Origin: a virus
DNA: 53,570 nucleotides
IMG/VR virus record: IMGVR_UViG_3300028840_000680
Location: 1 to 53,570 of that record
Strand: one strand, 5' to 3'
The position numbers and the translations under genes were made by a program. The notes below the pieces were generated by a model that ran no database searches, was not told where the DNA came from, and saw only the letters and a list, made by a program, of their open reading frames with translations. Below, piece by piece: positions 2,012 to 11,496 of the stretch. The first letter of the stretch is position 1; each line of letters starts with the position of its first letter.

Positions 2012-2475
2012 TACTTACCTGTGCTTCCTAGGGCACCATCACCCCGGTTAGAGATGGTAATCGGATGCCAATCATAAATGTTGGGATCCTCAGACGCTAC
2101 AAAGCGAGCGTGAACAACCGGAACAACAACAGCCTGTGCAATCTTGTCCCCGGGCTCGATAGTCTGCCAGTACTTACCAATGTTGTGAAGATTGACAAAA
2201 ACCTCACCATCATAGCCAGAGTCCACAACACAAGCGCCAACCAGAAGCTGACGCTTTGCAGCCATACTAGATCGGTTCTTGATTTCCATCATATAACCAT
2301 GAGGAATAGCAAACCGCAAACCAGTAGGCAGTAATTTGCTTTCGCCCGGATCAATTCGAAGGCCACGCACAGCAGCATCGTCTGGGCTAAATCGCAGATC
2401 CAAACCTGCATCTGACGGGTTTGACCTCGTAGGGGGGTGAACATTATCGTGAATCATATGGTACTGTAAAATCAT
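2011..2475 (-). CDS. dut: dUTPase (trimeric dUTP diphosphatase)
   Basis: Hydrolyses dUTP to dUMP and pyrophosphate, keeping uracil out of DNA and feeding ThyX. All five motifs of the trimeric family are visible in the 154-residue protein: SDAGLDL (21-27), NRSSMA (67-72), VVDSGYDGE (83-91), PGDKIAQ (108-114) and the Gly-rich C-terminal RGDGALGSTGK (144-154) that closes over the active site. I chose the ATG at 2475, not the longer frame from 2529: it has an AAAGGA ribosome site, starts right after the purA stop and gives the usual length. Its stop overlaps the ClpP-like start. Confidence 0.95.
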   Translation of the reverse strand: MILQYHMIHDNVHPPTRSNPSDAGLDLRFSPDDAAVRGLRIDPGESKLLPTGLRFAIPHGYMMEIKNRSSMAAKRQLLVGACVVDSGYDGEVFVNLHNIGKYWQTIEPGDKIAQAVVVPVVHARFVASEDPNIYDWHPITISNRGDGALGSTGK

Positions 2476-2476
2476 T

Positions 2477-3490
2477 TTAAATCCTTTCTGGTGATTCTGA
2501 AAAGACAACATTAATATTTCTGTTGTCACTGAGAAATCGTCTGATGTATTGCTTCCAGGCTACCTCTGAACCCAACTTGAGCATGATAGCATTGTTGTCT
2601 GAAGAACGCAAGTTCCAAGCACCAGTTTGTCGAAGAATATCTACCTTGTTGATAATCACATCTGTGACACCATTGATATCTACTGCTTTCTTTAGGTCCC
2701 GAACATTAAGCCAGTTACACTGACGGGGACGGCCAGTGGTCGCACCAAACTCCTTTCCTAGGCTTTGTAGCAAATCAAATACTCTTCCTTCACCGTGAAA
2801 GTTCTTTGCTCCCACGTAAGTATCGTAAGCCTTCGTGATACCGTAAACCTTTCGGACAGCCTGCGGAGGGATGCCGTTTAGGAGCGCCCCAGCGGTCGTA
2901 CAGTGGCTTGAAGTAACATAAGGGTAATCTCCCCAGTCAATGTCCAATCCAAAGCCTTGTGCGCCCTCACAGAGGATCACAGTGTCACCCTGCTGATTGT
3001 TGTGTAATTCTTCATAAAGGTCGATTATATATGGTGCTAGTTCGGGCACATCTTTGGCTAATAAGCCTTCTCTAGCGTATTTATCACGATAGGTCGGTCC
3101 AATGCCTCTTTTGGTTGTGCCAATTTTGGTATCTTTTCTGTCTTCTTCTAAGTGACAGTCTGTTGTGATATGAGCATTTGCAGCGATGAAGACTTTGTCT
3201 TCTGTGTCAATGCCCGCTTCATTAAGCTCCTTGAGTTCTGCAAAAAACGCTTCTGGGTTTAACACGCACCCTGAGCCTATAATTGACTTAACTCCATGTA
3301 TAACGCCTACCGGTATTGAGTGTGTAACGATTTTGTTGCCATTGTGGTATATGGTGTGTCCTGCATTTGCTCCTCCGCAAAAACGAATCACATGAGTATA
3401 GTCTCCGTTTTTGACCAGATGGTAGGCAACTTTTCCTTTGGATTCATCCCCCATGGCCAGGCCGATGACCATATCCGCTGCTTTAATCAT
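2477..3490 (-). CDS. purA: adenylosuccinate synthetase, short archaeal-type, with replaced 5' end
   Basis: Joins IMP and aspartate using GTP, the first committed step to AMP. At 337 residues it is shorter than the about 430-residue bacterial enzyme and nearer archaeal PurA and the phage relative PurZ. Visible motifs: GDESKGK (14-20, catalytic Asp15), NAGHT (42-46, His45), IMP-loop GTTKRG (124-129), EGAQG (175-179), aspartate-loop TTGRPR (251-256) and guanine-specificity NKVD (281-284). The catalytic Asp, TTGRPR and NKxD argue for true PurA over PurZ, where the Asp is, as I recall, replaced by Ser. The usually invariant Gly of GDEGKGK is Ser17 here. The start overlaps the endonuclease gene by 8 bases, and a remnant of an older 5' end lies at 4508-4573. 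Confidence 0.92.
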   Translation of the reverse strand: MIKAADMVIGLAMGDESKGKVAYHLVKNGDYTHVIRFCGGANAGHTIYHNGNKIVTHSIPVGVIHGVKSIIGSGCVLNPEAFFAELKELNEAGIDTEDKVFIAANAHITTDCHLEEDRKDTKIGTTKRGIGPTYRDKYAREGLLAKDVPELAPYIIDLYEELHNNQQGDTVILCEGAQGFGLDIDWGDYPYVTSSHCTTAGALLNGIPPQAVRKVYGITKAYDTYVGAKNFHGEGRVFDLLQSLGKEFGATTGRPRQCNWLNVRDLKKAVDINGVTDVIINKVDILRQTGAWNLRSSDNNAIMLKLGSEVAWKQYIRRFLSDNRNINVVFSESPERI

Positions 3491-4475
3491 GTAAACTAAA
3501 CCTTTCTACTAATAGTTGATACGATAAATTCTTTTTTTTACAATATGCCTCAGCATATTTCTTTTTGGCTTCAACTTGTTTTTGGTGTTCTTTATACCAA
3601 TAACTGCTCTTGATCTCAACCAGAACTTTATTGTCCCCTTTTTCTACCTCAAAGTCAACCCTATATTTTCTTTTTTGTCCTTCAAAAACATAATCAATAG
3701 TTGGGCCGTTCAAAACCCTGTAATTATTGTTTTCGCAGTACTTGACAAACCTCTCTTCGTAGGAACCTTGTATATTGATTATATCACCAAATATTGTACT
3801 GTATTTTCTAGTCTTTGCGCGGCCGCCACCATTCATCGACGCCTTTTCAGCATACTCGTCTATATCCATAATTTGCTTGGTGCCATAACGATGAAGCATT
3901 GTCTCTTCTGCTTTTTGCCTATTGGTGTAATGTTCATCACCATATCTTTCTTTTTTTGTTTTTCTTATTTGAGCCTTAACGGACGCTATTTGTCCTATGT
4001 TTACGGCATTAGGATTACAATACTTCTCTCTTATCGTATCTATCGCCTTGTCCCTTATTGCCTTACTTTGAAGAGGGTGTTCAACTCCATAATTCAACAA
4101 ACAGGTTGCCTTCTTTTTTTCTTTTGTCTCCGCTAGTTCTGATATATTACCTACTCCGTACTTGTCTAATAAAGTTTTTTTAGACTTCTCTTTAACTTTC
4201 TTTAGCTGGAATTGGTTTGTGACCCCGTGTTCTTCATATAACCTCTGAGAGCGACATTTGTGCGCGCAACTGGCAGAACATGTTTTTCTATATCCTATCT
4301 TCAAGCTGATAAATTTGGTGGACTCAGCGCACATCTTACATTGCCCGTCGCCCTCTTCTTTCAAGTACTCATCATAATAGTTTTTTAAACTTGTTGAGTG
4401 TGTTTTTTTTAAATGAGTCCCCAAGTAGTTCAGACCGCAGCTATAATTACAAATTAAGCAAGTTACTTTATACAT
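3483..4475 (-). CDS. homing endonuclease inserted in purA, PD-(D/E)XK-like C-terminal domain
   Basis: A 330-residue protein. The N-terminus has two Cys/His clusters that look like zinc fingers (CLICNYSC then HLKKTH; CKMC then CSASC). The middle has spaced repeats of the LLDKYGVGN, LLNYGVEH, MLHRYGT type, seen in phage endonucleases as DNA-reading elements. The C-terminus has a nuclease-like core with Asp274 followed by Glu287-Ile-Lys289 (VEIK), the PD-(D/E)XK pattern. It sits between a 21-codon purA remnant and the functional purA, so it entered purA at the GDEGK codons. It has its own late-type element (4499-4506) and a GGAG ribosome site. The endonuclease call is strong from architecture and context; the exact family is inferred. 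Confidence 0.78.
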   Translation of the reverse strand: MYKVTCLICNYSCGLNYLGTHLKKTHSTSLKNYYDEYLKEEGDGQCKMCAESTKFISLKIGYRKTCSASCAHKCRSQRLYEEHGVTNQFQLKKVKEKSKKTLLDKYGVGNISELAETKEKKKATCLLNYGVEHPLQSKAIRDKAIDTIREKYCNPNAVNIGQIASVKAQIRKTKKERYGDEHYTNRQKAEETMLHRYGTKQIMDIDEYAEKASMNGGGRAKTRKYSTIFGDIINIQGSYEERFVKYCENNNYRVLNGPTIDYVFEGQKRKYRVDFEVEKGDNKVLVEIKSSYWYKEHQKQVEAKKKYAEAYCKKKNLSYQLLVERFSLHD

Positions 4476-4498
4476 TTTGTATTTTCTCCATTCATAAA

Positions 4499-4506
4499 TA
4501 AATAGT
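4499..4506 (-). promoter_or_regulatory. late-type promoter element ACTATTTA
   Basis: Minus-strand ACTATTTATTTATG begins at 4506. The core ends 24 bases before the endonuclease ATG at 4475 and lies just after the purA 5' remnant, so the inserted cassette appears to bring its own promoter. Role inferred from recurrence. Confidence 0.5.
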
Positions 4507-4507
4507 T

Positions 4508-4573
4508 TTACAAAAAGTAAAAAGCCTTGCCTTCATCACCAAAAGACAAACCTACTATTATATCTGCTATCAT
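4508..4573 (-). pseudogene. purA: 5' remnant of purA upstream of the inserted endonuclease
   Basis: A 21-codon frame with a GGGAG ribosome site. It reads MIADIIVGLSFGDEGKA, then a few unrelated residues and TAA. Residues 1-17 match the start of PurA (GDEGK, with the catalytic Asp at residue 13 as in E. coli) and align with the start of the downstream purA (IKAADMVIGLAMGDESKGK). Homology ends in the middle of the GDEGKGK motif, which marks the insertion point of the endonuclease cassette. It may still be translated into a 21-residue peptide, but it cannot be an enzyme. Confidence 0.85.
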
Positions 4574-4685
4574 TTTCTACTCCCAACATTTTCTTAGCTA
4601 TCCTGATATACTCAGGGTTTATTTCATCCCAAAAGGCGCAGCTGCTTTTTAATTGATCGAACTGAGAATCCCCAAGTGGGATCAT
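4536..4685 (-). CDS. possible 49-residue ORF overlapping dnaE end and purA remnant
   Basis: An out-of-frame ATG at 4685 opens 49 codons that overlap the last codons of dnaE and end inside the purA remnant. The segment FWDEINPEYIRIAKKMLG between the two genes has protein-like composition. No good ribosome site is visible and I recognise no family. It may be a small gene whose end was altered, or chance. Confidence 0.3.
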   Translation of the reverse strand: MIPLGDSQFDQLKSSCAFWDEINPEYIRIAKKMLGVENDSRYNSRFVFW

Positions 4686-6774
4686 ATTGTGGGCGACACA
4701 TATAAGGACGATTCAAGTGGATCCTGTCCTTGCCCTCAACAATACCCCAACAACGGAAGCGTGTCAAGACGGAATTCGAATCAATAACTTCCACAATCCA
4801 ATAAGGCTTTCCTCTTTTTGTTTTCTTGCGAATAATCTCGCGTGGAATAAACCATACAAGTCCCAACTCTGGATCGTAATCTGAAATCGCCGGAATGTAA
4901 TACTCATCCAACTTTTGCCGAACCTCTGGCGTTACGACCAGAGACATAGGGAAAATACCTGTGATTGTTGTTAGATTCTCGATTTCTTCCTCTGGAGTGA
5001 AGTCCCCTTCATCTCTATACTTCTCAATGTTCTCATTGAACTTCTTGCGGTTGTAAACTCTATCTACTGCGACAGCAGACCAGAAATGCTTGCGACCAGT
5101 GAAGCGATCATCCATTAAACTATTCATCGCTCCCGACCGAACTAGCACATCAAGAGCCTTCTTGTTTAGTTTGCTGTAAACAATATCATCGTGGAATAAA
5201 AACTCTTCGATATTCGCAAACGGACGGTTATCAACAATCTGCTGGATTGCTGCGTCACCAAGTCCCTTTAGGCCCGCAAGAGGCTGAATAAGCTTGCGAT
5301 CATCGTTTGGATCAATCTCCCACTCAAACGAAGAACGGTTTACGTCTGCCTTTTCGATAAAGAAGCCATTTGCCTTTGCAATATTGATTGCCTTTTCCTT
5401 TCGCTTCTCGGGCTCCTTGTCCAAGAAAGAAGCCATCCACTCAATCGGGTAATAGTTCCAAAGCCAAGCGCACTGGAAAGAAATCGCGGAATAAGAAATA
5501 GCGTGAGACTTGTTGAAGCCGTATCCGGAGAAATACTCAAATCGCTCCCACATACTTTCTGCTTCGTGCCTACGAATGCCCTTTTCAACACAACCCTCAA
5601 TAAACTTGTCGTGGATTTTCATCTTTACTTCGTGACCCTTGCCGGTTCCCTTCTTGGTAAGAACCTTGCGAAGAAGGTTGCCTTCATCAAGAGATACGTC
5701 CTTACCCAACTTGTGAGCAAGTAAGGCAATCTGCTCCTGAAAGATAAGGAACCCGTAAGTTTCTTGCGTAACTTCCTTGATATGATCATTCATATAATCA
5801 ATACCGTCTGCGTTCTCCTTAGCTTGAATGTATTGCTCGTGAACATTTGCCGATAGAGGCCCGGGACGATAAATGGAAGTAATGGCGGAAATATCAACCA
5901 AAGACTTTGGCTGTGCGTTTGCACAGAATTCCTGTGCTCGCCCCTCGGTAAACTGAAAAATACCGGCGAAGTTTCCTTTCTGGAAAACATTCTTATACAC
6001 TTCCTGATCGTCAAAGTCAATAACGTCCGGGTGAAGATGCTTGTTGTAGAAATCCTGAACATCCTTGAACGTCGGCTCTGGATTATTGTAATGCCGAACA
6101 AGGATGTGACGGATTGCGTCTTCAATCATCCGAAGTGTGGAGAGCCCCAAAAGGTCAAACTTAATAAACCCAAGCGGCTCCAAATGACGAACGTTCTGAC
6201 CTTCTGCCCACGGAGACTGCCGAACACCACCAGAACTAATAATCGGCATATGCTCGTTTAGATCGTCCGCAATCAAAACGCCACCAGCGTGGCGGGAACA
6301 ACTCCTTACCTGACCTACAAGCGCCTCAACGTGCGTTTTGATGTGAGGGTGCTTTACAAGGAAGCCACGAAGAGAAGGAGAAAGTTCCATAACCTCTTCC
6401 CAAGTTGGAGTATAAACACCAGCCTTGATGCCGTGCCTTGCCTTTGCGGCAGGAGTAGCCTCAAAGATCATCTGAGATGTAACTTTATTTACCTCAATGA
6501 AAGGCACACCATAGAACTTTGAAATGTCCTTGATTAGAGACTTCAACTGTAGAGTGTTCCAGTTTGAGATTGGAATAACAGAGTTCTTGCCCCAATCCTC
6601 CATAAGACGCTCTTTTAGTTCCATTGGATTGCTCACATCATAGTCAATATCAGGCATATTGGTATCTTTTGGATTATTTAGAAATATACCCTCCAGCTCC
6701 TTCTTCTGTCCTGCTGGGACTGGGATTAGGTTTCTTTTAGCCACTGGCAAGTGTGTTATGTTAGTGATTTTCAT
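4624..6774 (-). CDS. dnaE: DNA polymerase III alpha subunit, C-terminal piece
   Basis: A 716-residue piece of a family C polymerase holding the whole active site: PDIDYD (41-46, metal ligands Asp42 and Asp44, matching Asp401/403 of E. coli) and IKFDLLGLS (Asp207, matching Asp555), then the fingers region (SGYGFNKSHAISYS) and helix-hairpin-helix segments (LAGLKGLGDAAI). Residues 1 to about 34 (KITNITHL... ending GIFLNN) do not belong to DnaE. They line up in length and strand pattern with C-terminal halves of split inteins but lack the usual HN plus Cys/Ser/Thr junction. The start has an AAGGATGG ribosome site. The piece must join or pair with the products of 6903-8057 and 9036-9893 to make a polymerase. 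Confidence 0.92.
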   Translation of the reverse strand: MKITNITHLPVAKRNLIPVPAGQKKELEGIFLNNPKDTNMPDIDYDVSNPMELKERLMEDWGKNSVIPISNWNTLQLKSLIKDISKFYGVPFIEVNKVTSQMIFEATPAAKARHGIKAGVYTPTWEEVMELSPSLRGFLVKHPHIKTHVEALVGQVRSCSRHAGGVLIADDLNEHMPIISSGGVRQSPWAEGQNVRHLEPLGFIKFDLLGLSTLRMIEDAIRHILVRHYNNPEPTFKDVQDFYNKHLHPDVIDFDDQEVYKNVFQKGNFAGIFQFTEGRAQEFCANAQPKSLVDISAITSIYRPGPLSANVHEQYIQAKENADGIDYMNDHIKEVTQETYGFLIFQEQIALLAHKLGKDVSLDEGNLLRKVLTKKGTGKGHEVKMKIHDKFIEGCVEKGIRRHEAESMWERFEYFSGYGFNKSHAISYSAISFQCAWLWNYYPIEWMASFLDKEPEKRKEKAINIAKANGFFIEKADVNRSSFEWEIDPNDDRKLIQPLAGLKGLGDAAIQQIVDNRPFANIEEFLFHDDIVYSKLNKKALDVLVRSGAMNSLMDDRFTGRKHFWSAVAVDRVYNRKKFNENIEKYRDEGDFTPEEEIENLTTITGIFPMSLVVTPEVRQKLDEYYIPAISDYDPELGLVWFIPREIIRKKTKRGKPYWIVEVIDSNSVLTRFRCWGIVEGKDRIHLNRPYMCRPQYDPTWGFSVRSIKKQLRLLG

Positions 6775-6902
6775 TTACCATCCTTTGTAATATCTTTCTT
6801 CGTTGGTTCTTTACTGAACTAAATGTGCGATATGGGAATAGTGTCTCATAAATGTTTTGTGTCGTCAAGTTGTTTTCTAACGCCTCAACGAACTTTTGGT
6901 TT

Positions 6903-8057
6903 TTACACGCTCATTATCTCGTCGCCTACCTGTAGGTTTTTGGCGAGGGCATAAAAAACTTTATTATCTCGTTTAACTTTCACTTCCATATCCGGAGTGA
7001 TAGTAATAGTCCTACCGCTATCAGTGTCCAGCTGGATGGCGGCAACCTCTTCCAGTGCTCTTCCATTGTCAGTAATGTAACCAGAGCCTGCGTCCTTTGT
7101 CATAAACCTCTCAAAAAGAAGACCATACTTGATAGGGTCAATCTGTGTGATCCCGAGAACATAAGCAACCAAAGAACCAGCAGCGGACCCACGACCGGGG
7201 CCAGTCAACTGAACTTCATTTGCCTTGTCGGAGATCGCTTTCATGGTCAAGAAATACTTGCTGAAACCACGGTCATCAATAACATCCAACTCCATCTTTA
7301 GACGGTCAGTGTATTCTTTGTTCTCGTGGAGCCCACGATTACGCAAACCTTCCAAAGCATAGTTTACAAGTGCCTCTGTAGCAGTATGCCCCGCAGGAAC
7401 CACAAAGTCAGGAAGCTTTACAGTTGTATCAGGAACAAAGTCCTCAATCATCTTGAAAGCAATGTCGTGAGTTCGTGTGATTGAGTCCATTACCAACTGA
7501 TCGTCATACTCTACGCCAGCGGTCTTTGAGTAATACTTGTAGGAATCCCACATTTGGTTTCCATTCTTAGGATAAATCTCATATCCAATCTCTTCAACAC
7601 CAGCCGGAAGATCGGTATTCTCCATCCAATCAGGCTTGCCCTTACCAAGCCAACCAAGGCGCTTGTAAAGCTCTCGGTCCTTCCAAGCGTCCGGATTAGG
7701 ATAATGAGAGTCGGCAGTTGAAATAAGTGGAATACCAAACTCGTGATGCATTTCAATAATGTACTGATTTAGCTCGTGCTGCTCTGGAATATTGTTCCAT
7801 TGAAGCTCGCCGTGCCAACGATCCCCAAAGATCTTCACAAACTCTCTTGTGGTCTCGCGCATTGCCTCTCGGACAGCCTCGGGGCCTTCCTCGCGGTTTG
7901 CCCAGTAGTTGCCGGCATACGGACCACCCAAACAATTATGGACCAACAGTCCGTTGGCAAAAAAATTATGTGTGTCTTCGACTGTTATATCATAAGTGTC
8001 CTCAATCTCTTCTAATTCCTCTATTTCTTCGATCTCTACAAATTTATAATTATTCAT
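6903..8057 (-). CDS. dnaE: C-intein + DNA polymerase III alpha middle piece + Hint-like tail
   Basis: Residues 1-41 are a split-intein C-half: acidic start, then [21 protein letters not shown], ending His40-Asn41 with Cys42 as the first extein residue. Residues 42 to about 324 are DnaE: rest of the PHP domain ([20 protein letters not shown]) and the start of the polymerase core ([20 protein letters not shown] at 313-318). From about residue 325 to the stop lies a Hint-like strand set ([26 protein letters not shown]) resembling the end of a split-intein N-half, with Met where block B normally has His. The start overlaps the endonuclease stop (ATGA). Trans-splicing at the first junction is strongly supported; the second is uncertain. 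Confidence 0.9.
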
Positions 8058-8959
8058 TGTTCCACCAAAATTTCTTGTATTTGTTGTTTGATTGCTTCTT
8101 CGTTGTAGTTTATATCATATTCCCAAAGTGTTAGTACATTAAAACCCATTTGTTTCGCTATGTCAAGTTTATGTTGATCCTTTTTCCACACTTCTTCTGC
8201 TGGTTGGCCTAAAATTATATCGCTTGCTTTAAAAAATCTATTATCTCCGTGAAAATAAGTCCCATTAACCTCTATTATAAGATCTCCAATCAAAAAATCA
8301 TAAATATACGATAAATTGCCAAATAACCTATTGTTTTCAGGTATTCTAATCTGTAACTGTTGCGAGTATGAAACACCTATTTCATCTAATATGGCGGCAA
8401 TCTTGCATTCTACACTGGATAGGCGATTATTATCAGAGAACGACTTGCAGGCCGCTATTCCTCCAGAAGAGCAAATTTCTTTAATTTGCTTTGTCGCCTC
8501 ATAGAGCGAAATACCCCGAGAAGTGTAGTATTCTTTACATAATGGGCTATCTTTTCGTTTAAACTTGGGATTACCCAGTGTTCCGTTCTTTTTTCGTTGT
8601 TCTATTGTTTTCATCTGGCCTTTTCTTGATTTTTCGGCATTAATCAAACTAATCTGCTCTAATGTATAATCTTTTGGGAACCTATATTGAAGTTTCCAGT
8701 TTTGAGGCATAGTGTTGTAATTCTTTAAATTACATGTAAGTCCCTGTGATTTAAAAATCGAACGAGTAGTTTGCAGTGTATTTAGCCAAAATAATCGTTC
8801 ATCCTTGATAGCCTCCGGATAATCTCTTATAATCCAATCCCTTATCATACCAAAACTATGGTTATCTTCTAATTTTTGTTTTATTAATGCTTCATCAACA
8901 TAAGTGCAAAGTATCATATATTTTTCTTGTTTAGATAAATTGTGGTATTTATGGGCCAT
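8054..8959 (-). CDS. VSR-like homing endonuclease between split dnaE intein halves
   Basis: A 301-residue protein from the ATG at 8959, which has a GAGGAAA ribosome site; a longer GTG frame from 9004 is less likely. The C-terminal part has the VSR-like nuclease pattern: [17 protein letters not shown], then W.KD..K...A..MGF, then LTLWEYDI. This matches the endonuclease family reported with fractured phage genes and split inteins, of which I-Bth0305I is the known example. The N-terminal half is probably DNA-binding. It lies exactly between the intein N-half (ends 9036) and C-half (starts 8057) of dnaE. The late-type element at 9007-9014 precedes it. Confidence 0.85.
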
Positions 8960-8994
8960 TTTGGTTTCCTCTGTGAGGATTGGGGAAGTAAAGA

Positions 8995-9027
8995 CCCCCC
9001 TCACAATAAATAGTATTCTCGGGGGGG
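8995..9027 (-). terminator. C/G-run hairpin enclosing a late-type element
   Basis: Runs of C (9021-9027 read on minus) and G (8995-9000) can pair around a loop that contains ACTATTTATTGTG. It lies after the stop of the dnaE N-terminal piece and before the endonuclease. It could end transcription from dnaE while the enclosed element starts the endonuclease message. The following bases are TCTTTACTT, not a clean U-run. Confidence 0.4.
9007..9014 (-). promoter_or_regulatory. late-type promoter element ACTATTTA
   Basis: Minus-strand ACTATTTATTG, 48 bases before the chosen ATG of the dnaE-associated endonuclease. It lies in the loop of the C/G hairpin. Promoter role inferred. Confidence 0.45.
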
Positions 9028-9035
9028 TTTATACC

Positions 9036-9893
9036 TTATTTTAAAGACAAAATCTTAATGTTTTTGTGTTTTTTGAGGTCTCCGGCTTCCATCCACCCTT
9101 GATCTGTAAAAACCTTGTGATCTGGTGTGAGACGGACACTTTTGCCATCTTTGGTTTTGATACGAATAATTTTGGCTTTCTTTCTTGTTAAATCTCCCCA
9201 TAGAACACGACGATACACTAATCGTTGTTCTTTTTCGCTATAAGAGAGCACAAAAAGTTCGTTGCCTTGTTTATAGTTTCTGACTACATCATCCAGTCTC
9301 ATCTGTCCCATAGAAGTATCCAAGATACTATCACCAGTCAAACAAGCAGACGCAGCGATAATGCCTTCTGAATACTTGTCCAGCATCTTGTAATCAACAC
9401 GCGGATAACGGTAATAGTTCTCTTCGTTGTAAGACTCGGAAATAAGCTTGAAAAGGTTGTTTAGTCCTGTTTGGTTTTGAGCCAAAAGAACCAAATGACG
9501 ACGACGGTTTAGGATAGACTTGATAGCCTTCTTTGACTCTTTCTCATCCTCGACGGTAGCACCGGAAGTATCGCTCTTCGCAAGAGACTTTGCGAGTTTA
9601 GCGTCTTCCTTGATTCTATTGTATTCTCCTCTCCACTCCTCGATAGAAGGTAGGAAATAAGCTTCAACACCAAAGATAGGCTTGAAGTTCTTGCCTTCTG
9701 CCTTCATCTTCTTCCAATGAAGAAACTGATGTGAAAAACCATTCATATTTCCGTGGTCCGTCAGTGCGAGAGCTTCACAACCGTTTGAATAAGCCCAGTC
9801 CATATGTTCGTCTGGGTATCCTATTGCGTCAAAGATAGACCCCGCAACAGAATGCGCGTGAAGTCCAACAAAAGGTATCTTTTTATCCGTCAT
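9036..9893 (-). CDS. dnaE: DNA polymerase III alpha N-terminal piece + N-intein
   Basis: Residues 1-183 are the start of the DnaE PHP domain (VGLHAHSVAGSIFDAIGYP, ALTDHGNMNG, then GIIAASA). Residues 184-285 are a split-intein N-half starting at Cys184: block A CLTGDSILDTSMG and block B with TPDHKVFT, ending in KKHKNIKILSLK and a stop. Splicing with the C-half encoded at 8057 would restore [15 protein letters not shown], the normal DnaE reading at this place. The start overlaps the upstream gene by 11 bases. The order N-extein/N-intein, endonuclease, C-intein/C-extein is the fractured-gene layout known from environmental phage sequences. Confidence 0.95.
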   Translation of the reverse strand: MTDKKIPFVGLHAHSVAGSIFDAIGYPDEHMDWAYSNGCEALALTDHGNMNGFSHQFLHWKKMKAEGKNFKPIFGVEAYFLPSIEEWRGEYNRIKEDAKLAKSLAKSDTSGATVEDEKESKKAIKSILNRRRHLVLLAQNQTGLNNLFKLISESYNEENYYRYPRVDYKMLDKYSEGIIAASACLTGDSILDTSMGQMRLDDVVRNYKQGNELFVLSYSEKEQRLVYRRVLWGDLTRKKAKIIRIKTKDGKSVRLTPDHKVFTDQGWMEAGDLKKHKNIKILSLK

Positions 9894-10749
9894 TAACTTT
9901 TCCTTTTCTGTACATTAGTGTTTTCGATGGTCGCTTCATGCGCTTGCCGAGCGGCGACCCTAGTAAAGTAGCATACCCATCCCAGGTAGTCAAGTCATAA
10001 AACTCTTCAATCTCTTGGTCGTTGTTTGTGGGTCCTCCACCAAACACATCTTCAAGATTGTATTTTAGAGACACCAACCGTTCTTCTGGCGGCAACTTCT
10101 CCCTTGGTATCGCCTCTCCGTTAGTAGATTTCCAAACCGAAGCATTTTTGGTTATTGTATGTTTTGCTCTGCGCCACTCTTCTGGTTCCATAACAAATGA
10201 GATAGGATACCCGTCTCTTACCGTTTTGCCTTTGTGAGAAAAGTAGAATGTTTTCTTTTTCTGAACTTTTGCCCGATGTTTTAGCAGTTCTTTTGGATCA
10301 AGCATCCCCAAAGGAAATGAAACATAATAAGCAGCCGGTGTTGTCCATCGCGAGAACATACGCATAATCCAAAAGCATGCATTAGCGCCATAGATCGCAG
10401 ACCAAGCGTAGTTATCTACCCTATCTCTATGTTTCGGGTGAATAGGAACATAATAAATGGGAACTTCCAAATGATTGGGGCTGCCCCAGTTTTTGAACGC
10501 ACCTTGCTCCACAGAACGCATATCTGTCGCATATTCGCCTATGCGATGGCGGATAAGTGGGGCAATATCGTCGTTTGCGACAATCCAAATAGAGTTACAG
10601 CCAACGTGAATACATTCAAAAATAGCCGACTCTAATGCGGTATAGTTTGGAGCAACAGGTATTAGTGATGAGTCCCATTCCATACCAAACTCGGAAGTCA
10701 TTCCTGATACCGGGATGATCCCCGGTAGGTTTTCTTTGCTACGGGTCAT
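9883..10749 (-). CDS. uncharacterised protein with possible nucleotidyltransferase-like N-terminus
   Basis: A 288-residue protein. The N-terminal part (GIIPVSGM, then LESAIFECIHVGCNSIWIVANDD) resembles the strand-helix pattern of sugar or nucleotide transferases, which begin with a nucleotide-binding strand, a Pro-x-x-x-x-LE segment and a GC..IWIV strand. The later SAIYGANACFWIMRMF could correspond to the next helix. The classic GxGTR signature is absent, so activity is unproven. It overlaps both neighbours by about 11 bases (dnaE N-piece downstream, uncharacterised gene upstream), so it is co-translated with the polymerase cluster. Confidence 0.6.
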   Translation of the reverse strand: MTRSKENLPGIIPVSGMTSEFGMEWDSSLIPVAPNYTALESAIFECIHVGCNSIWIVANDDIAPLIRHRIGEYATDMRSVEQGAFKNWGSPNHLEVPIYYVPIHPKHRDRVDNYAWSAIYGANACFWIMRMFSRWTTPAAYYVSFPLGMLDPKELLKHRAKVQKKKTFYFSHKGKTVRDGYPISFVMEPEEWRRAKHTITKNASVWKSTNGEAIPREKLPPEERLVSLKYNLEDVFGGGPTNNDQEIEEFYDLTTWDGYATLLGSPLGKRMKRPSKTLMYRKGKVNDG

Positions 10750-11470
10750 ATAGAACTATTCTATCATCCAAATCTTCTGTTGTCTCGAAATAAAAGTTTC
10801 TTTTGCTTATGTGTCGGTCGCTATGTTGTAGTTTTAGGTATTCTTTGTTGTTTCTCTTCAATCCCATTTGCCTTATCTTTCTTTCCAAAAGCAAACGCAC
10901 GATTGTGTCGGAAAAATCAAAGTTTTTGATGTCCTCGGCATCAATAACACTTGTTGCCAAAAAGTCCTTGAACTCACCGGTCTTGTTTCTATCAACTCGG
11001 TTGGTTCTGATGGTTCTGAACTCTTTTACAAATGTGTCGTGGGGCTTGATCACAATATCGTGGCCAAGTTTGGAACCTACCGTAATATCAAAGGTATCCT
11101 TGACGGTGTAATCTTTGATAACCTGATCTACGCCATCAAAGTTACAGTTTTCAAGGTCAAAAATATGAAGGAAACCAAACTCAATCAAAATCTTGGTGTT
11201 TCCTTTTGTGATAATCTTCAATTTGTTGTCTTCCATTCCGATAGTTTGAATATCAAACGGAACAGGAAGTTTGGATTTCATTCCAAGTTCAAATATGCCG
11301 TTATACCAGTTGCTTTTTACATCTTCATAACGAAAGAAATGAACAAAAGGTCTTTGTTCATCATTGACGATTAGATGGTAGTTCTTTTTGTTCGCGAATG
11401 TAATCGCTTCTTCCCGCCAGCCAATCACAACATTGGGAAGTTTGATTTGTATAGGTGAAAGCCCAGTCAT
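10739..11470 (-). CDS. uncharacterised protein
   Basis: A 243-residue soluble protein that I do not recognise. It is rich in Lys, Asp and Ile/Val, with no membrane segment. The ATG at 11470 has no visible ribosome site. A sigma70-like promoter (TTGACT-17-TACATT) would start transcription at about 11470, the A of the ATG, so a leaderless message is possible. A 16-base-pair hairpin also overlaps the start. It is translationally coupled to the next gene, and its place upstream of the dnaE cluster suggests early expression. Confidence 0.75.
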   Translation of the reverse strand: MTGLSPIQIKLPNVVIGWREEAITFANKKNYHLIVNDEQRPFVHFFRYEDVKSNWYNGIFELGMKSKLPVPFDIQTIGMEDNKLKIITKGNTKILIEFGFLHIFDLENCNFDGVDQVIKDYTVKDTFDITVGSKLGHDIVIKPHDTFVKEFRTIRTNRVDRNKTGEFKDFLATSVIDAEDIKNFDFSDTIVRLLLERKIRQMGLKRNNKEYLKLQHSDRHISKRNFYFETTEDLDDRIVLYDP

Positions 11471-11496
11471 ACTACTAATGTAGCATAACCGGGCTT
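11459..11496 (-). promoter_or_regulatory. 16-bp RNA hairpin covering the start codon of the gene at 10739-11470
   Basis: Left arm AAGCCCGGTTATGCTA (11496-11481) pairs with right arm TAGTATGACTGGGCTT (11474-11459) around a six-base loop. All 16 positions pair in RNA, three as G-U wobbles. The right arm includes the ATG at 11470. It could hide the start in read-through messages, or act as a terminator for the gene upstream (the stem is followed by TTTC). Confidence 0.5.

Follow-up and report, generated by a model that had tools for sequence, protein, structure and literature searches.

The window, meaning the whole stretch of DNA that was analysed (53,570 nucleotides, IMG/VR virus record IMGVR_UViG_3300028840_000680), carries a purA locus on its minus strand. 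Direct reading of the sequence in the 5' to 3' direction shows a DNA polymerase III alpha gene that ends at 4624, followed by a short stub, an endonuclease ORF and a complete purA (Table 1). The stub extends from an ATG at 4573 to a stop codon at 4510-4508 and encodes MIADIIVGLSFGDEGK followed by five codons which are not purA, with the homology to purA ending at its nucleotide 47 (window 4527, ...GATGAAGGCAA). The purA now in use begins with MIKAADMVIGLAMGDESKGK at its own ATG at 3490. An earlier, sequence-only reading of this DNA quoted the codons of both starts correctly, but took them for the same N-terminus repeated in other codons, which the comparison does not support, the two starts being divergent homologues (MIADIIVGLSFGDEGK vs MIKAADMVIGLAMGDESKGK).

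Table 1. Features of the purA locus in the window, listed 5' to 3' along the minus strand; native and foreign as assigned by comparison with relatives.
Feature	Position	Strand	Remarks
DNA polymerase III alpha, C-terminal part	4624..6774	-	native upstream neighbour; Pfam DNA_pol3_finger / HHH_6
Native spacer ahead of old purA start	4574..4623	-	50/50 nt identical to L004
Displaced native purA start, 21 codons and stop, MIADIIVGLSFGDEGKAFYFL	4508..4573	-	purA homology 4573-4527
Left (5') insert junction	4526..4527	-	alignment with L004 breaks after ...GATGAAGGCAA
Free-standing endonuclease gene, 330 aa	3483..4475	-	Pfam, PHROG, motif positions
8-nt overlap of endonuclease stop and new purA ATG	3483..3490	-	AAAGG ribosome-binding-like sequence in last endonuclease codons
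Foreign purA 5' part, about 498-511 nt	2980..3490	-	~59% nt identity to L004/L006, abrupt change
Native purA 3' part	2477..2979	-	94.0% nt identity to L004, 92.7% to L006
Complete hybrid purA ORF, 337 aa	2477..3490	-	Pfam Adenylsucc_synt 2.1e-86

The endonuclease contains a DUF7487 region (Pfam PF24308, 2.7e-21) and a C-terminal TnsA-like domain of PD-(D/E)XK type (PF08722, 7.5e-6), the latter with a score barely over the cut-off (26.9 vs 26.5 bits). The catalytic D...ExK motif of PD-(D/E)XK enzymes is present at the level of sequence (YRVDF271 and VEIKSS286, with an upstream E in YEERF239), and two homing endonuclease families are matched in PHROG (7e-17 and 5e-11). An AlphaFold model of the nuclease built without an alignment is of low confidence (pLDDT 42). 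No close relative of the enzyme was found in IMG/VR except in L001, a separate contig discussed below. The gene lies outside any recognised intron or intein, encodes a recognised nuclease domain and has relatives with an empty site, which are features expected of a free-standing (intronless) homing endonuclease.

Two further observations concern the surroundings. The DNA polymerase III alpha gene lies in pieces over 4624-9893 of the minus strand; the piece at 9893-9036 ends in the N-part of an intein, that at 8057-6903 opens with the C-part of one, and the two intein parts are separated by an unrelated, endonuclease-like ORF (9004-8054). A second break in this gene, from 6903 to 6774, is intein-like in appearance, and the arrangement resembles that of published fractured genes which contain split inteins. 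Just 5' of the new purA start, minus-strand positions 3497-3541 match the RAGATH-30 RNA family at 23.5 bits, against a gathering threshold of 59.5, probably by chance.

Ancestry of the two purA starts

The window purA was compared with its relatives in IMG/VR. In the sister contigs L004 and L005 purA is uninterrupted and is preceded by the same upstream flank, representing the empty site. The stub is identical to L004 purA at 45 of 47 nucleotides and the 50 nucleotides preceding it match throughout, a likeness too close for chance resemblance of the stub to purA, while the polymerase gene upstream shares 95.1% nucleotide identity with L004 over 2128 nt, reaching through the spacer into the stub. 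Close uninterrupted relatives have purA starts of the ADIVVGLSYGDEGKGK type, and the start now used in the window is absent from every uninterrupted purA relative in IMG/VR. Because the stub and its 50-nt spacer match the uninterrupted L004, and because no uninterrupted relative has the current start, the stub is, as judged from these comparisons, the native and ancestral purA start of the window lineage. The older upstream start of 21 codons put forward in the sequence-only reading is borne out by the empty site in L004/L005, its identity as purA holding for the first 47 nucleotides and failing for the last five codons. The uninterrupted sister phages which that reading proposed to look for were found, and the opposite history that it had named, in which relatives would show the downstream 5' end to be ancestral, has no uninterrupted relative carrying that end.

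As had also been proposed, purA was not left split, the downstream gene being complete with 337 amino acids, but its two halves differ in descent. In alignment with L002-L006, the first ~500 nt are about 59% identical and the remainder 93-94%, and the switch is abrupt, at purA nucleotides ~498-511, on the edge of a conserved stretch encoding CEGAQGFGLDIDWGDYPYVTSSHC. At sites informative with respect to L004 and L062, the gene is L004-like at 45 of 114 before the breakpoint and at 200 of 205 after it (permutation p 0.0003). Likewise, the N part of the protein has its best other match in L062 (67%), and the C part is 96% identical to L002/L004. In AU tests on the short half-gene protein trees, grouping of the window 5' half with the sisters was not rejected (p 0.34), with one comparison at p 0.019; since these tests are uninformative, the case for a mosaic rests on the nucleotide breakpoints rather than on trees.

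Judged by these breakpoints, about half of purA came from a divergent purA lineage and is foreign DNA, not the product of synonymous recoding, and the differing codons are explained by foreign ancestry rather than by recoding in place. The idea that a first exon had been replaced is right in that the replacement restored purA, but no exon is involved, as there is no match to an Rfam intron family, and the segment spans ~500 nt instead of the start alone. For the donor of this 5' half, the best virus match in IMG/VR reaches 67-68% amino acid identity and no bacterial match in the GTDB genomes exceeds 59%. No donor with the endonuclease ahead of its own purA was found in IMG/VR or the GTDB genomes.

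The hybrid gene is probably not dead, to judge from its coding sequence. Its product matches solved PurA structures in the PDB with E values down to 6e-59 and retains invariant residues of the PurA family such as NAGHTI. Over 11.5 kb, 27 SNPs separate the window from L001, a contig of its own with identical junctions, and the codon changes in purA between the two comprise 8 synonymous and 2 nonsynonymous ones. All 27 SNPs are confined to 691-2732, which takes in the 3' half of purA and the genes that follow, and positions 1-690 and 2733-11490 are identical (window vs L001/L082), a clustering that suggests a separate recent exchange. With regard to family assignment, the window PurA scores below the NCBIfam cut-offs of both PurA and PurZ. 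Across the viral PurA of loci L001-L158 the P-loop-like motif is variable (GDEGKGK, GDEAKGK, GDCGKGK, GDSGKGK, GDESKGK), at positions that are normally fixed.

Recurrence in other viral purA loci

A second copy of the purA start was sought upstream of each viral purA, in distinct loci with enough upstream sequence. Such 5' stubs occur in 3 of 134 distinct purA loci, and 3' stubs in none of 135 viral purA loci. Besides the window, L036/L037 carries a stub ORF of 64 codons, followed by an endonuclease gene and a complete purA, and L122 has a stub of 13 codons, MIDYADVVVDLAC, followed by a GIY-YIG gene and purA. The endonuclease of L036/L037 has no Pfam match; its phage relatives are annotated as HNH, restriction or endonuclease VII-type, and a homing family of the endonuclease VII type has been described (PMC6083498).

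Sisters with an empty site are available for both, namely L051 for L036 and L240 for L122. The L036 stub matches L051 at 128/165, compared with 100/165 for the replacement, and the L122 stub matches L240 at 34/37, compared with 28/37; the L122 purA and its stub differ synonymously in 8 of the first 12 codons. Mosaic tests place the breakpoint at ~nt 420 in L122 and at 300-340 in L036 (each p 0.0003), the signal being modest in these two loci, whose sisters are distant. In all three cases a Shine-Dalgarno-like sequence for the new purA sits in the last endonuclease codons (AAAGG, AGGAG, AGGAG), so that the endonuclease and the new gene start form a compact unit. Searches with the L036 and L122 endonucleases returned no further purA-like cases. 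The sequence-only reading had known of no counterpart to this layout; it recurs in these two additional viral purA lineages, and its mirror image at the 3' end of genes has been published from fungal mitochondria (PMC3630166). Taken together, the recurrence suggests a repeatable way of invading a gene without breaking it.

One candidate in another gene, L324, was rejected as a fourth case. Here, at 4610-5400, an HNH endonuclease gene is flanked on either side by a prohead-protease-like start (MAKNKFYLTAS / MDKNKFYLTAS). A GIY-YIG gene lies immediately upstream, and an N-terminal domain is common to both nucleases. The repeat includes the ribosome-binding region and, because the repeated start is nearly identical DNA without a foreign replacement, it is classed as a short direct repeat.

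Proposed homing with a replacement gene half and its alternatives

Intronless homing is considered the most likely origin of the locus, whereby an endonuclease would have invaded purA near its 5' end while travelling with a divergent, probably cleavage-resistant 5' half. The donor would be a phage with the endonuclease gene directly ahead of a divergent purA, and entry would proceed by double-strand-break repair. The enzyme would cut endonuclease-free purA near the point where the stub now ends, and repair would transfer to the recipient both the endonuclease gene and the foreign 5' half next to it, with the right-hand exchange taking place in conserved sequence of sufficient homology. On its old upstream flank, the left end of the invaded gene would remain as the stub. 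If the foreign half has no cleavage site, the invaded gene would be functional and immune, and ribosome binding for the new purA would probably be provided from the end of the endonuclease ORF.

In the window, the native purA is truncated at codon 16, and the junction between the foreign 5' half and the native 3' half falls in strongly conserved sequence. Around the insertion point, 13 of 40 nucleotides differ between native and replacement DNA (window vs L004), as do 12 of 40 in the corresponding comparison of L122 with L240. These differences are compatible with loss of a cleavage site and leave the immunity suggested in the sequence-only reading plausible, with resistance of the replacement not guaranteed, because 27 of the 40 nucleotides are still common in the window comparison. 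In addition, the cut site suggested by the end of the stub is conjectural, because free-standing T4 endonucleases can cut hundreds of bases from their own location (PMC2988022).

A history in two steps, in which ordinary phage recombination swapped the 5' half of purA and an endonuclease that does not cut purA was inserted independently at the boundary, is judged improbable although not negligible. Recombination alone leaves unexplained why a truncated native start should stand directly before a nuclease gene that bears the ribosome-binding sequence of the new gene, and the stub, endonuclease and complete new start are found together in three lineages with unrelated nucleases. The two-step history does draw on the readiness of phages to recombine, on nuclease genes known at the boundaries of genetic exchange between phages (PMC10448857), and on the window-L001 SNPs at 691-2732 alone, which indicate other recombination nearby.

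The stub could also be a working leader, through which translation couples the ribosomes of the polymerase operon to the endonuclease, with the layout kept for expression. In all three cases it retains the native start, with about 30-55 nt between its end and the endonuclease ATG, and overlap-coupled expression of free-standing phage endonucleases has been discussed (PMC2988022). This is nevertheless a very unlikely account of the layout, with stub lengths that vary widely (13, 21 and 64 codons) and no conserved tail, and it would add to the homing explanation instead of replacing it.

Still less probable is that the endonuclease resides in an intron or between split-intein halves, the stub being joined to the later purA as RNA or protein. 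Group I introns are common in phages and inteins break up a DNA polymerase gene of this very phage, but no Rfam intron family was matched in window 2400-5000 even at E 1 (the sole match below threshold being a non-intron one), nor in L036 or L122, domain searches of purA and the endonuclease revealed no intein, and the purA downstream already forms a complete gene with a start of its own. Least credible of all is an assembly chimera, for although the window is an environmental virus contig with no isolate behind its structure, the same junctions are present in L001 despite its 27 SNPs, L036/L037 are likewise two contigs sharing one structure, and the endonuclease and purA ORFs are both intact.

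Beyond the single locus, the three cases may represent recurrent phage home-and-rescue cassettes, in which unrelated endonucleases (PD-(D/E)XK, HNH/endonuclease VII-like, GIY-YIG) have each come independently to travel with a cleavage-resistant 5' part of the target gene and spread foreign gene halves between lineages, leaving the coding region unharmed. This wider proposal is regarded as evenly poised between true and false.

Relation to known mobile endonucleases and significance

In fungal mitochondria, mobile endonuclease ORFs replace the 3' ends of genes (Allomyces atp6; Glomus atp6, atp9, cox2, nad3), the displaced native end matching the sister species at 91-98% and the inserted end at 64-81% (PMC3630166). 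The fungal elements and the window have in common an endonuclease ORF within a gene, a foreign, divergent end fused in frame, and a displaced native end which survives beyond the endonuclease and matches a sister. They differ in that the 3' (C-terminal) end is replaced in fungi and the 5' end in the phage cases, as a mirror image. Furthermore, the phage cases involve a phage rather than a mitochondrion, other nuclease families and a replacement of up to half of the gene, and hybrid transcripts have been shown in the fungal system, whereas the phage hybrid is known from DNA sequence.

Among phage systems, the free-standing SegF, SegG and MobE of T4 (PMC2988022) resemble the window in having a nuclease beside its presumed target, endonuclease-free relatives and a co-converted flank. 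These intergenic examples have no displaced gene start, whereas in the window the insertion lies inside a gene that was rebuilt with a foreign 5' part. The split genes Aeh1 nrdA/mobE and T4 topoisomerase/mobA (PMC2988022) likewise have an endonuclease gene within a coding region, and the phage in-gene insertions reviewed in that source leave the gene split. In the nrdA/mobE type both pieces are needed and reassemble, while in the window the downstream purA is complete, and a stub of this size is much too small to encode a subunit. By analogy only, synthetic home-and-rescue gene drives (PMC7968924) also employ a nuclease that homes into a gene and carries a version which it should not cut; as described there, they are engineered in Drosophila, CRISPR-based and of designed recoding, whereas the phage cassette is natural. 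Given the fungal precedent (PMC3630166), the phage layout is not categorically new. No published 5'-replacement layout in phages was found in the part of the literature covered, and with coverage partial its novelty is provisional.

Homing endonucleases are thought to persist in coding regions by sheltering in an intron or intein, or else by dividing a gene into pieces that remain functional. If the present interpretation is true, bringing a replacement gene end would be a further solution for phage endonucleases in coding regions, and its threefold occurrence in purA, each time with another nuclease family, points to convergence. As for the cut, the stub indicates the probable region, and a natural substrate exists in the sister phage. 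Origin by homing would provide a molecular driver for hybrid metabolic genes in phages, and would represent a natural counterpart of engineered homing systems with a recoded rescue.
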